Origin: Candidatus Parachristensenella avicola
Lineage (GTDB): Bacteria; Bacillota; Clostridia; Christensenellales; UMGS416
Reading direction: 5' to 3'
Length of the DNA: 64,000 bases
NCBI GenBank assembly: GCA_904420205.1
Contig: CAJFUN010000043.1
Location: 1-64,000, forward strand
The stretch's first letter is position 1. Each line of letters begins with the position of its first letter. Below, one piece after another: positions 45,565 through 50,626 of the stretch. The translations under genes and the position numbers were made by a program. A model generated the notes under the pieces. The model made no database searches, was not told the DNA's origin, and was given only the letters and a program-made list of their open reading frames with translations.

Positions 45565-45713
45565 GCGCATCATCCCCTTTTTGATTGAAAATATCCATTA
45601 AAGCTCATTATAGCACAGCGTGCAAAGGGGCAGGAGCAAAAATTTCCTTCCGGCGTATAGCCATGGACATTTATGTGCATACTTACCTAGACAAACAAAA
45701 GGAGGACTTCATC

Positions 45714-45980
45714 ATGAGCGACGCGAAAATCCAGCAGTTTTCGGAAAAGCTGAAAGCTTTATCCCATCCGCAACGCCTGAGTATCGTCGAAGGGCTAATG
45801 CAGCAGCCCAGCAACGTCACGACCATTCAGCAGCACCTGGGGATCCCCCAGCCCAGCGTATCGGCCCATCTTGCCAAGCTGAAGAACGCGGGCATCATCC
45901 AGGGGCAGCGCCAGGGTCAGGAGATTAGCTATAGCTTGGTGGACGAGGATACGCGCAACCTTTTGAATCTGATGCATTGA
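45714..45980 (+). CDS. small ArsR-type HTH regulator
   Basis: 88 residues. A single winged helix: LKALSHPQRLSIVEGLMQQP, recognition helix QPSVSAHLAKLKNAGII, wing QGQRQGQEISYSLVD. No cysteine metal site is present, so it is not an arsenic or zinc sensor of the known type. ATG 45714 with AAAAGGAGG at 8 bases; an in-frame extension to 45585 lacks similarity. Monocistronic with its own terminator; target unknown. Confidence 0.88.
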   Translation: MSDAKIQQFSEKLKALSHPQRLSIVEGLMQQPSNVTTIQQHLGIPQPSVSAHLAKLKNAGIIQGQRQGQEISYSLVDEDTRNLLNLMH

Positions 45981-46006
45981 AGCGAAGGAGTATAGCGCAC
46001 AAAATG

Positions 46007-46036
46007 AGGCCGCCGGATTTTAATATCCGGCGGCCT
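46007..46036 (+). terminator. terminator after ArsR-like gene
   Basis: 11-bp stem 46007-46017 / 46026-46036 with an 8-base AT loop. Confidence 0.8.
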
Positions 46037-46304
46037 TGTAGTATTTTATCAAAAAAGCTATAAGGAGAAACGAGAAAACCTGATAAACAGGAAAAAACAC
46101 GATAATATGAATCGGAATAAAACCTTTACCTTTTACCCCAAAACACCCGCTAGTTGATACGCCTATATAATAGCATCAAAAAAATGCTTTTTCAATGCTT
46201 GAGATAACAAAATATGGAAAAAAACAGGTGGATCATTAAGTAAACGTTACGATCCAAAACGGCGCTCTGGGATACAATCACTACCTGAAAGGGAGGAAAG
46301 TGCT

Positions 46305-48923
46305 GTGGAACACAGAACCAAGAGGGCCAAGTGGCTTGCTGCGTTCATGGCGGTCTGTATGTCGCTGTGCGTGGCGCCTGTAGCGGCCTTCGCAGCGGAG
46401 GAGGAACCGTCCGAACCGGCAGACCCGACAAAGACGGTTGTAACCGTTGAACAGTATGCGGGCGATGCGGATCTTTACGGAAAGAAGGCCGCCGACCTGG
46501 CGGAGGGCTCGGCCCTGAAGCTGGTGGAGGATTACACGGGCTATTGGGATGATCCAGCCATGAAAGCGGGCTATTTCATTCCGGTCCTGGTAACCGTAGA
46601 AGGTGCGACAGAGGGTGTGACCATTGAGCTGGAGCCCACTAACCTGCCGGACGGCGCACCCAAGCAATATGGCAAGGACGACCTGGACGAGAACAATCAG
46701 ATGATCCTGGTGTACCGGGTGGCCGGCGTCGATCAGAAGCGGATAAACTCCTTTAACCTGACGGCCGATGCCGACGGCGCGGCGGGGGAAAGCTTTACCC
46801 CGGAGATCGTGACCTTTAACCTGAAAAACTACACCCTTCAGGCCAACGCCACCACCGGTACGGTGGAAACCTACACGGAGGAGGGGGACACCGAGGTCCT
46901 GGGCAAAAAGGTTGCCGAACTGATCGACGCCGAGAAGAACATGCTCCTGCGGGTGAAGGACTTTGCGAACTATTGGCCCGGGAACGAGGCCATGCAGTCC
47001 GGCTATTATCTGCCGCTGCAGGTGACCATTGACAACGCCCGCGAGGGCGCGGCCTATACCATCGAAAAGACCAACGAGGGCACGGAAAAGGTGGTAGAGG
47101 TTGGTACAGAGGGAACGGACATCCTGGTTTATCGCGTCGCCGATCTGGAAGGCAACACGGTTGTGGATGAAATTACCCTGTCGCTGGATGCCGACGGCGA
47201 AGGCAAGGCCTGCGCTCCCGTAACCAAAACCATCAAGGTGAGCGATTATGCTTTCCAGGCGGTCAGCGCTTTTACTGTCAAGCAATACGAGGGCGACGCC
47301 GACCTCTTGGGCAAAACGGCGGCCGATCTGGTGGATGGAACCCATCTGAAGCTGGTGAAGGATTGGGCCGAATACTGGCCGGATAACGAGGAAATGCAAT
47401 CCGGTTACTTTGTGCCCGTCGCCATTGAGGTGGCCGACGCCACCGACGCAACCACCATCACCGTGAATCCTACCGCCACAGGCGAGACGAAAACCTTTAC
47501 CGGCAAGGATATGGAGGACGGCCAGCTGCTTATGGTCTACCGCGTTGCCGGTGCGGATGGGGCGGACAAGGTCGAATCCTTCACCGTGACAGTGGACCTG
47601 GACGGCGAGGGCAACGCCTACCAGTCGAAGGAGTATACCTATTCCCTAGGGCAGTATACCCTGCAGTCGGCGCTGGAAAAATTCATCAGCGATGTGGAAA
47701 TCACCTTTATCACGGCTGAGAACTACTATACCGATGCAGTGGGTGTAACGGACAAAACCCCCGCCCCCGACGAAGAGAGCGACCTGCCCTGGATCCAGGT
47801 GACCTACAAGGTAGATCGGAACGTGGTCTATGAGACGGCGGACTATACCAGCGTGATCGAAGTGTATAAGGACGGCGAACGAATCGATACCTTTGAAAAG
47901 ACGGCGGATGTAAGCCAGGGAAACACCGTGTATCACCAGATCAGCCTGGCCGGCAGCAGCTCGCTGCCGGACAATGACAGCCTGGATCTCGACCTGAGCG
48001 AGCTGGCAGGCAATTACAGCGTGAAGATCTATGGCGACGATGGTGTGACGGCCGACACCGCCACGGCAGAGGCAGCCTTTGCCTACGCGGATAAGCTCCT
48101 GGGCGAGGTTACCGGTTTCGAGTATGTAACCGAGTATCCCTACACGGAGGGCGACCCCTATTATGATGAGAACGGCACCAAGTCCATGCCTTGGCTGCAG
48201 CTGAACTTCACCCGCAACCAGGATCTTACGGCTTACACCGTTGCCTTCACGCCGGTGAAGGACGAGAATGGCGCTTCGGCGAGTACGGAGGCGACCTTCA
48301 CCTTTAGGGCGGAAGAAGGCAAGACTTTCCCCAAGGGCGAGGGCTATGTGCAGCTTGCCTTGGGCGAATACACAAAGGAGCTGAACGAAGGCCTGTATGA
48401 TGTGCGCATCGAGGCGGAAGGCAAAGTAGGCGAAAAGGGTATCTTCATGCGGGATGCCATTGTCTACAAGAACCTTAAAGTATCCAAGACCGTGGCCGGC
48501 GCGGAGCTGACCCCCAAGGATGACAGCGGCATTACGATCGACGGGAGCGGCTATGCGTCCGGCATCGAAATCGGATCAACCGTAAACGATATGTTGGCCA
48601 GTTTTGAGACCGGCGCCGGTGAGCTTGTCGTGCTGAATAAGGACGGCGAAGTGATCACGGGGAAGACGGCGATTGGCACCGGAGCGAAGATTCAGACCGT
48701 GGTCGAGGGCGAAGTCATCAAGGAGATCACCGTGGTAATCATGGGCGACGTGTCAGGCCGAGGTAGTGTAGATATTGGCTCCCTAGTCATGATGGCGAAC
48801 CACATCAAAAACAATGGCGGCCTTGAAGGCGCATTTGCGATGGCTGCCGATATGAATGGAAATAGCATCATTGACATTGGCGACTTTGTGCAGGTAGCAA
48901 ATCTGTTAAAAACGGTTGCCTAA
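46305..48923 (+). CDS. large secreted surface protein with three repeats and dockerin-like C-terminus
   Basis: 872 residues from a GTG start with GGGAGG upstream. Signal peptide to about residue 30 (AAFA). Three related repeats of about 137 residues begin near 46, 185 and 322; each has a Y-x-G/E-D-x-D/E-x-x-G-K opening, an ANYWPGNEAMQSGYY-like segment, and LVYRVA near the end. Two further beta domains (about 460-600 and 600-730) share the SDLPWIQVTYK / KSMPWLQLNF pattern. A Gly/Val-rich linker domain (about 745-810) precedes two dockerin-like segments: GDVSGRGSVDIGSLVMM and ADMNGNSIIDIGDFVQV. The first has Arg and Ser at Ca2+ positions where Asn/Asp is normal. Highly acidic overall. It is probably held at the surface through the cohesin-like protein encoded next. 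Confidence 0.82.
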   Translation: MEHRTKRAKWLAAFMAVCMSLCVAPVAAFAAEEEPSEPADPTKTVVTVEQYAGDADLYGKKAADLAEGSALKLVEDYTGYWDDPAMKAGYFIPVLVTVEGATEGVTIELEPTNLPDGAPKQYGKDDLDENNQMILVYRVAGVDQKRINSFNLTADADGAAGESFTPEIVTFNLKNYTLQANATTGTVETYTEEGDTEVLGKKVAELIDAEKNMLLRVKDFANYWPGNEAMQSGYYLPLQVTIDNAREGAAYTIEKTNEGTEKVVEVGTEGTDILVYRVADLEGNTVVDEITLSLDADGEGKACAPVTKTIKVSDYAFQAVSAFTVKQYEGDADLLGKTAADLVDGTHLKLVKDWAEYWPDNEEMQSGYFVPVAIEVADATDATTITVNPTATGETKTFTGKDMEDGQLLMVYRVAGADGADKVESFTVTVDLDGEGNAYQSKEYTYSLGQYTLQSALEKFISDVEITFITAENYYTDAVGVTDKTPAPDEESDLPWIQVTYKVDRNVVYETADYTSVIEVYKDGERIDTFEKTADVSQGNTVYHQISLAGSSSLPDNDSLDLDLSELAGNYSVKIYGDDGVTADTATAEAAFAYADKLLGEVTGFEYVTEYPYTEGDPYYDENGTKSMPWLQLNFTRNQDLTAYTVAFTPVKDENGASASTEATFTFRAEEGKTFPKGEGYVQLALGEYTKELNEGLYDVRIEAEGKVGEKGIFMRDAIVYKNLKVSKTVAGAELTPKDDSGITIDGSGYASGIEIGSTVNDMLASFETGAGELVVLNKDGEVITGKTAIGTGAKIQTVVEGEVIKEITVVIMGDVSGRGSVDIGSLVMMANHIKNNGGLEGAFAMAADMNGNSIIDIGDFVQVANLLKTVA

Positions 48924-48972
48924 CGACGCATGGTATGGACTTGGGATAATAGAATACCAGGAGGAAAAACAC

Positions 48973-49665
48973 ATGATGAAAAAAGGATTGCTTCTCGTAT
49001 TGGCAGCTATGCTGCTTCTGTCGATGAGCGTAACGGCCTTTGCGGCTGCCGCTCCATCGGTGAACGTGAGCGTCAGCGATCCAAACCCCAAGACGGGCGA
49101 CACGATTACCGTAACGGTTACCTGCCCGGGTAGCGGCGGTATAGACGCTAGGATTACAGCGACAGGGCTGGAATATGTCAGTCATACGGCCGATGGCATG
49201 GATCAGAGTGATGCGGAACATATCATATTAGCAGGTACCAAGGTGACCTACACCTATAAGGTGACGGCCAAGGAAGGCGAGACCTTCAGCTTTGTACTGT
49301 CCAAAATAGTGGTGTCGGATGAAACTGGCGCTAATGTCACTTCCGTGGAGGACACAAGCGTGAAGGGAGAAGTAGCGGCTGCTGCGACGAAGCCCTCGGA
49401 GCCGACGAAGCCTTCGGAGACGGCTAAGCCCTCGGAGCCGACAAAGCCTTCGGAAACGGCCAAGCCCTCGGAGACGGCTAAGCCTTCGGAAACGGCCAAG
49501 CCCACCAATCCTGCAGAAACCACCACGGCAGCTGAGGGTGAGACCGACGACGTGCCTAAGACCGGTGACGAGACCAGCGCCATGCCCTATGTGCTGATCC
49601 TCGTAGGTGTGGCCGGCGTCGCCGCTGCTACCTTCGCGCTGCGCAGAAAGCAGGGCTCCAAGTAA
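48973..49665 (+). CDS. sortase-anchored protein with cohesin-like domain
   Basis: 230 residues. Signal peptide (cleavage near AFAA, residue 24), then a beta-rich domain of about 115 residues: VSDPNPKTGDTITVTVTC, GLEYVSHTAD, TYTYKVTAKEGETFSFVLSK, IVVSDETGANVT, which follows the cohesin layout though shorter. A (KPSExx)7 spacer at about 140-181 would span the wall. C-terminal sorting signal VPKTGD, a hydrophobic helix and RRKQ tail. A cohesin would bind the dockerin-like end of the preceding protein. ATG 48973 has AGGAGG at 8 bases. A terminator separates it from the sortase gene. The cohesin call is moderate; surface anchoring is firm. Confidence 0.82.
   Translation: MMKKGLLLVLAAMLLLSMSVTAFAAAAPSVNVSVSDPNPKTGDTITVTVTCPGSGGIDARITATGLEYVSHTADGMDQSDAEHIILAGTKVTYTYKVTAKEGETFSFVLSKIVVSDETGANVTSVEDTSVKGEVAAAATKPSEPTKPSETAKPSEPTKPSETAKPSETAKPSETAKPTNPAETTTAAEGETDDVPKTGDETSAMPYVLILVGVAGVAAATFALRRKQGSK
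49390..49515 (+). repeat. 7-copy 18-base repeat in the wall spacer
   Basis: In-frame tandem units encoding KPSEPT or KPSETA, the last degenerate (KPTNPA). It lies inside the coding sequence and is prone to copy-number change. Confidence 0.93.
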
Positions 49666-49678
49666 TTTCTCTTCACGT

Positions 49679-49705
49679 AAAAGGCGGGATGTATCCCGCC
49701 TTTTT
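49679..49705 (+). terminator. terminator between the cohesin-like and sortase genes
   Basis: 11-bp stem 49679-49689 / 49694-49704 with loop TGTA and T5. It would limit sortase expression by read-through from upstream. Confidence 0.85.
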
Positions 49706-49727
49706 CTGATAAAGGAGGGTGAAGCAT

Positions 49728-50582
49728 ATGCCAGAACACAACCGCCCACGCCCCACCCGCCGCGACAGGCGGCGCTGGCAGCAAAAGCAGCGGCGCTCCC
49801 GCCGTCAGCTGTATGCAGTGGGCGCGGTGTGCCTGGCGGCGGTCGCCGCAGGGGCCCTGTGGCTGGTCCGAAGCCAGGATCTGCGGCACGGGGCCACGGT
49901 GACCACCGCGCCGCCCACGACAGCCTCAACCGTCACGCCGCCGCCGGCCGAGACGGCGCTGTCCACCGTTTCCACCCCACCGGAGACAGAGGCGGCGCCT
50001 GCCATACTGCCGGAGCTGAAAGAGGCCTATGAAAGGAATCCGGATATGGTAGGATGGATCCGGATCGACGGGACGGAGGTGGACTACCCAGTGATGTATA
50101 CGCCCGGGGAGGATTACTACCTGTATCGCGACTTCGACAAGCAGGAGAGCAAGCAAGGGTGCATCTTCATCGATAAGCATGCAACACTGGAGCCAAGGGA
50201 TACGAACCTGCTGTTCCACGGGCACAACATGAAGGACGGGAGCATGTTCCGGACGCTGCTGGAATACAAGAAGGAAAGCTACTACAAGGAGCATCCGACA
50301 ATCCACTTCGACACGCTGTACGAACGGGGTGAGTATGAGATTGTGAGCGTATTCCTGTCGAAGGTATATAAGACAAGCGACGAGGTATTCAAATACTATC
50401 AATTCTATAACGCGGAAAGCGAAGCGGAGTTTGACGCGTACATCGCAAATGTAAAGGCGATGGCGCTATACGACACGGGAGTGGAGGCGCAATATGGGGA
50501 TGAGCTGATCACGCTGTCCACCTGTGAATACTCCACGGAGAATGGCCGCATTGCCGTCGTCGCACGGAAAATTTCCCGCTAA
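49728..50582 (+). CDS. srtB: class B sortase
   Basis: 284 residues. One N-terminal membrane helix (about 28-48), a Pro/Thr linker, and a catalytic domain with HGHNM (His166), TLSTCEY (Cys266) and GRIAVVAR (Arg274). Class B features include the extra N-terminal helices and the YLYRDFDKQESKQGCIFID stretch. It cleaves a sorting motif and joins substrates to the wall. The likely substrate is the VPKTGD protein encoded just upstream, possibly also the PQTGD protein at 3757. ATG 49728 has AAAGGAGG at 9 bases; the GTG at 49719 is too close to it. Confidence 0.93.
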   Translation: MPEHNRPRPTRRDRRRWQQKQRRSRRQLYAVGAVCLAAVAAGALWLVRSQDLRHGATVTTAPPTTASTVTPPPAETALSTVSTPPETEAAPAILPELKEAYERNPDMVGWIRIDGTEVDYPVMYTPGEDYYLYRDFDKQESKQGCIFIDKHATLEPRDTNLLFHGHNMKDGSMFRTLLEYKKESYYKEHPTIHFDTLYERGEYEIVSVFLSKVYKTSDEVFKYYQFYNAESEAEFDAYIANVKAMALYDTGVEAQYGDELITLSTCEYSTENGRIAVVARKISR

Positions 50583-50626
50583 AACATGCGCCCTGCCTCA
50601 GAAATTTTCTGGGCAGGGCGCATGTT
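50583..50626 (+). terminator. hairpin between srtB and fbp
   Basis: 15-bp perfect stem 50583-50597 / 50612-50626; no T tract, so it may act as a barrier for converging transcripts rather than a standard terminator. Confidence 0.6.

Follow-up and report, generated by a model that had tools for sequence, protein, structure and literature searches.

Sortase-anchored scaffoldins of Ruminococcus, in the cellulosomes of R. flavefaciens and R. champanellensis and as Sca5 in the amylosome of R. bromii, carry a cohesin on a wall-attached protein and so bring dockerin proteins to the wall (PMC11557425, PMC9112005), and diverged cohesins that escape profile searches have already been reported in that genus (PMC11557425). 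The three-gene set described here likewise appears to place a cohesin on a sortase-anchored protein, but it has just one cohesin-like domain and one cargo, whose genes form a row with that of a class B sortase; the cargo lacks a glycoside hydrolase or starch-binding module, and the set belongs to another bacterial order. The nearest solved structures come from the cohesin–dockerin pairs of Clostridium perfringens glycoside hydrolases (PDB 2w1n, 2jh2, 2vo8; PMC12997984, PMC5429695), which act pairwise and outside cellulosomes; those cohesins sit on enzymes and link enzymes together, whereas the domain studied here looks like a dedicated wall anchor. The Limousia mucinolysome (PMC12997984) similarly belongs to a gut bacterium and combines scaffoldins, one of them LPxTG-anchored, with dockerin cargo outside plant-fibre digestion. 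Its cohesins, however, were found by a Pfam profile and its cargo consists of mucin-degrading enzymes, whereas in the present case the domain is invisible to the profile and the cargo appears adhesin-like.

We analysed a 64,000-nucleotide stretch of Candidatus Parachristensenella avicola (contig CAJFUN010000043.1; hereafter the window), in which three consecutive genes very probably encode a minimal, diverged and non-cellulosomal cohesin–dockerin display system, with one cargo per sortase-anchored cohesin. This reading combines a dockerin and a sorting signal recognised in the sequence, a predicted fold and a coupling drawn from comparative genomics. In the mechanism that we infer, the 872-residue cargo and the 230-residue anchor would both be secreted, the class B sortase would join the anchor to peptidoglycan at VPKTG, and the anchor's single diverged cohesin would capture the cargo's terminal dockerin with a presumably private specificity, thereby holding one large repeat protein on the wall non-covalently and probably calcium-dependently. 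The three open reading frames and coordinates of the original prediction were confirmed, all on the plus strand (Table 1). For the 230-residue protein we chose the ATG at 48973, which is preceded by AGGAGG; the mechanical open reading frame opens earlier, at a TTG. An ArsR-type regulator gene (45711-45977) lies upstream on the same strand, beyond a hairpin, and the inverted repeat that follows the sortase gene is the probable end of the operon.

Table 1. Features of the three-gene set and its borders, in window coordinates.
Feature	Position	Strand	Basis or remark
Terminator-like hairpin, parts the set from the upstream ArsR-type gene	46004..46039	+	
Cargo gene, 872 aa, secreted (predicted), C-terminal dockerin	46305..48923	+	GTG start; signal peptide at about residues 1-30
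Three repeats of ~135 aa, type r (residues 44-179, 183-318, 321-454)	46434..47666	+	Cargo
Two repeats of ~140 aa, type s (residues 454-595, 595-727)	47664..48485	+	Cargo
Module of ~75 aa immediately N-terminal of the dockerin	48507..48734	+	Common to Christensenella cargo proteins
Two-segment dockerin module with a degenerate first calcium loop	48744..48914	+	Dockerin_1, residues 814-868
LPXTG-type anchor protein gene, 230 aa	48973..49665	+	ATG start
Cohesin-like domain, 112 aa, nine predicted strands	49048..49383	+	Structure model
KPSE(P/T)(T/A)-repeat stalk, 18-nt repeats	49384..49546	+	230-aa anchor
VPKTG sorting signal (49552-49566), hydrophobic stretch, basic tail	49552..49662	+	Sequence; TIGR01167
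Class B sortase gene, 287 aa	49719..50582	+	TLSTC; Cys codon 50523-50525
Inverted repeat of 15 bp, perfect, immediately 3' of the sortase gene	50583..50626	+	

We assigned the domain of the 230-residue protein by structure prediction. An AlphaFold2 model built from only four sequences gave nine strands at a pLDDT of 87.4 and a pTM of 0.80, a predicted nine-stranded jelly-roll of the cohesin kind. Foldseek against the PDB returned the C. perfringens cohesin 2vo8 as its first match (E 4.3e-4, TMq 0.80), and the three best VIA structural alignments were all to C. perfringens cohesins (Z 12.3, 12.1 and 11.7; 109 of 112 residues at 2.2-2.4 Å), with 2w1n the best solved match at Z 12.3. The original prediction had named an unrelated fold as the result that would speak against its cohesin-like call; instead, cohesins ranked first. 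Other beta-sandwiches came near, namely the CLIPPER adhesin (11.4) and Ig domains of beta-galactosidase (10.8), and Enterococcus EbpB (9.5) was also among the matches. The cohesins lead by roughly one Z unit, too little for the fold by itself to decide what the domain is. To this we add the scaffoldin context of the family, an LPXTG-type anchor in the window and, in one relative, tandem copies joined to dockerins.

Sequence profiles placed the domain outside the known family. Pfam Cohesin (PF00963) matched neither the window protein nor anything else in its genome, and relatives of the domain scored no higher than 15.7 bits, where the cut-off is 24.1, although in two Christensenella genomes, G127 (15.6 bits) and G151 (13.8 bits), the anchor gene was the best whole-genome match, far under the cut-off. 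A search of solved chains with a profile of the cohesin-like family recovered no solved cohesin and chance matches only, and a viral fold library yielded nothing relevant. Because PF00963 does not match, we call the domain cohesin-like, meaning that it would work like a cohesin, rather than a member of PF00963. Of the profile searches that the original prediction had proposed for both partners, the one for the dockerin succeeded (26.3 bits against 22.9) and the one for the cohesin failed; its suggestion of a diverged class agrees with the failure of Pfam Cohesin to pick up the 112-residue domain.

The dockerin is better recognised. Dockerin_1 (PF00404) scored 26.3 bits in the genome search, above the cut-off of 22.9, and 21.0 bits, just under it, in a scan of the whole 872-residue protein; together with a predicted signal peptide, this fits the claim of a secreted protein with a dockerin-like C-terminal end. 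The two dockerin-like segments noticed at that end together make one two-segment module. The atypical calcium positions are also real: segment 1 reads D-V-S-G-R-G-S-V-D-I-G-S, with Arg at position 5 and Ser at 12, and segment 2, D-M-N-G-N-S-I-I-D-I-G-D, retains all the usual calcium ligands. A degenerate first calcium loop is common to most relatives, and the loop is normal in two Christensenella dockerins (loci L041 and L042). The window dockerin is the sole one in its genome above the Pfam cut-off, with one further weak PF00404 match there, and the only one to match a profile of its own family; since that profile was built from these dockerins themselves, low scores elsewhere are not evidence in themselves.

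As to the cargo attached to this dockerin, a domain scan of the 872-residue protein found no glycoside hydrolase, in agreement with the original prediction, and no sorting signal is present on it. Its r and s repeats have weak relatives in the dockerin proteins of loci L038, L049 and L050. A model of the pre-dockerin module with the dockerin, built from four sequences, was of low confidence (pLDDT 36), and matches of the module to 9vo4/9vo5 were judged to be chance. Because the cargo of relatives is Ig-like and leucine-rich, our guess is that the window cargo is more likely an adhesin or ligand-binding surface protein than an enzyme.

The anchor ends in VPKTG, a hydrophobic stretch and an RRK tail, and TIGR01167 scored 15.7 bits on this sorting signal, against a cut-off of 15.9. 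The class B assignment of the sortase encoded after it stood up: the protein matched TIGR03064 (E 2e-43, 148.4 bits, narrowly missing the cut-off of 153.75), scored above the Pfam Sortase cut-off and carries the TLxTC motif as TLSTC. The window genome encodes a second class B-like sortase (L054:8907-9758; G000:C7:60918-61739) that is 31% identical to that of the set, and the stretch fetched around it contains no neighbouring dockerin or cohesin-like gene.

We then asked how widely the set is conserved. The 230-residue protein had no relatives in seven further genomes of the family to which the window belongs, and an order-wide search found relatives in another family, which we took to be Christensenellaceae because two of the genomes match deposited C. 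hongkongensis and C. intestinihominis contigs. In total the domain occurs in 7 of 396 genomes of the order; among 391 genomes drawn from the class it occurs in two, both already within those seven. A narrower profile search gave four loci, of which we regard one, in a long planctomycete repeat protein, as unrelated. At all eight loci of the window and Christensenella, the cohesin-like LPXTG gene has a dockerin gene as its immediate 5' neighbour on the same strand; a dockerin gene also precedes the cohesin-like gene at one locus of a further Christensenellaceae genome, G113, and the gap at these nine loci is 9-63 bp. A class B sortase gene follows directly at each of the six loci that no contig end interrupts, and is present at L041 and L042, where long antisense open reading frames overlie it. 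The survey of gene order proposed in the original prediction therefore found dockerin, cohesin-like gene and sortase conserved in this sequence in Christensenella. Copy numbers of dockerins and cohesin-like domains are 1:1 in the window genome (G000), G079, G127 and G151, 2:2 in G037 and G097, 0:0 in G059 and 31 to at least 15 in G113; the suggested arrangement of one scaffold and one cargo fits the window genome, with its one dockerin and one cohesin-like domain. Dockerins also occur where this cohesin-like family is missing, in 46 further genomes of the sampled order. About ten or more dockerins, again with no match to the family, are present in several of the order's genomes, most of them in family f11 (for example G202, G275 and G392).

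The two loci of G037 illustrate how the pairs differ from one another. L041:9316-11023 and L042:9473-11177 have in common a 1,709-bp cassette, 98% identical, that runs from the stalk over the sorting signal to the sortase. Identity drops to only ~60% in the DNA of the cohesin-like heads and to 30% in the protein sequence of the dockerins, which suggests either replacement of the head or gene conversion of the anchor part. C. hongkongensis has a milder form of the same pattern. Between loci, head and partner vary while the anchor stays uniform.

The family is most expanded in G113, where loci L043-L048 and L112-L131 carry 31 dockerins together with 15 or more cohesin-like domains. Four of the domains each stand alone on an LPXTG anchor, and others form chains: four cohesin-like domains and a dockerin (L047:7098-9134); a dockerin, two cohesin-like domains and another dockerin (L044:269-2833); and two cohesin-like domains and a dockerin, adjoining a class B sortase (L131). 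By analogy, these chains resemble adaptor scaffoldins. A Pfam scan of 21 of the dockerin proteins recognised BspA-type leucine-rich repeats in four, CAP in two and NlpC/P60 in one, as well as PKD or filamin-like and weak Ig-like domains, carbohydrate-binding repeats in one and GH5 in one, so that the assembly reads, from its sequence, as a display scaffold and not a cellulosome.

Weak Ig-like profile matches (Big_8 at E 0.0015 on the window protein; DUF11, Big and BatD on several relatives), together with the Z of 10.8 reached by Ig domains of beta-galactosidase, would suit an ordinary Ig- or DUF11-like domain that binds no dockerin and merely shares a surface operon with the cargo, whose dockerin would then serve calcium-dependent self-association or stabilisation. 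We consider this unlikely, given that cohesins top both structure rankings, that adjacency is strict and copy numbers are one to one, and that the tandem domains joined to a dockerin in G113 have the architecture of an adaptor scaffoldin.

It is highly improbable that the dockerin docks to a cohesin on some other protein or in another species while its cohesin-like neighbour has a different partner. Dockerins with other or no partners do exist in the order, because the 46 genomes mentioned above have dockerins without this family; the window genome, however, offers neither a Pfam cohesin nor a second member of the cohesin-like family, and in Christensenella each copy is paired with its own neighbour. 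Slightly less probable again is that the sortase polymerises the 230-residue protein into a pilus-like fibre with the 872-residue protein as a tip or side component. A sortase dedicated to the operon and a pilin-like beta-sandwich among the fold matches (EbpB, above) could be taken that way, but the enzyme is of class B, whereas pilin polymerases are class C sortases, scaffold-like pilin motifs were not seen, and the 872-residue protein has no sorting signal. The favoured reading remains display of one cargo by one anchored cohesin. The window genome falls short of a cellulosome, having one dockerin of the family, on a protein free of glycoside hydrolase, and one cohesin-like domain, and because relatives carry the same set, the cohesin–dockerin chemistry familiar from the breakdown of fibre seems to serve adhesin-like display here.

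We also compared the two halves of each dockerin, whose internal symmetry is held to underlie dual-mode binding; single-mode binding has been reported for C. thermocellum dockerins by which single proteins are brought to the cell surface and for the C. perfringens pair (PMC5429695). In the one-to-one systems, the recognition helices of a dockerin's own halves scored a mean of 33.8 against 14.4 for shuffled pairs (permutation p 5e-5), and at five de-duplicated one-to-one loci 36.2 against 17.8 (p 0.008), a likeness that we count in favour of the display reading. The dockerins of G113 showed no such likeness (16.3 versus 16.4 shuffled, p 0.58), and their first halves follow a common pattern, often IAQLV. 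These sequences suggest that pairing is private and symmetric in Christensenella and the window organism but shared and asymmetric in G113; a symmetric private mode would run opposite to the published contrast between single-mode and dual-mode dockerins. Distance matrices of cohesin-like domains and dockerins agree (Mantel r 0.76, p 0.0007), an agreement that we do not count as evidence of binding because shared descent would produce it too.

A serine recombinase gene is the immediate 5' neighbour of the dockerin gene at three Christensenella loci (L039:5622-6581, L040:5368-6174 and L042:5575-6565; Resolvase PF00239, E 2e-31, in L039). Between the two genes, inverted hix-like sites (TATACTTTT / AAAAGTATA) flank a ~108-bp segment with a promoter-like element pointing away from the operon, TTGATT-16-TAAAAT in L039 and L042 and, by eye, TTGATT-17-TAATAT in L040. 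The inverted repeats exceed shuffled sequences at L039 (20/24), slightly so at L040 (18/24) and not at L042. The segments are likely phase switches in the OFF state. For the window itself we rejected an invertible promoter, as the best flanking inverted repeat (15/24) fell within the range of shuffles.

Christensenella is a much-studied human gut genus. Our search found no literature on cohesins or dockerins in Christensenella, nor on its sortase-anchored surface proteins; most subscription papers lay outside that search, and an earlier report is possible. Two published surveys (PMC12997984, PMC11557425) would miss these domains because they are based on cohesin profiles. We give roughly even chances to a broader view, in which diverged cohesins form a general surface-display chemistry in the order of Christensenella, with private anchor–cargo pairs in Christensenella and the window organism (two divergent ones in G037), an invertible-promoter phase switch at three loci and, in one genome, an expansion into a scaffold of many components that carries adhesin-like and cell-wall proteins in place of fibre-degrading enzymes. 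If true, cohesin–dockerin pairing would also be a general plug for displaying adhesin-like proteins, and these naturally occurring one-to-one pairs, including two that differ strongly inside a single genome, would offer a clean set for studying how orthogonal binding specificities evolve and would be useful for engineering surface display.
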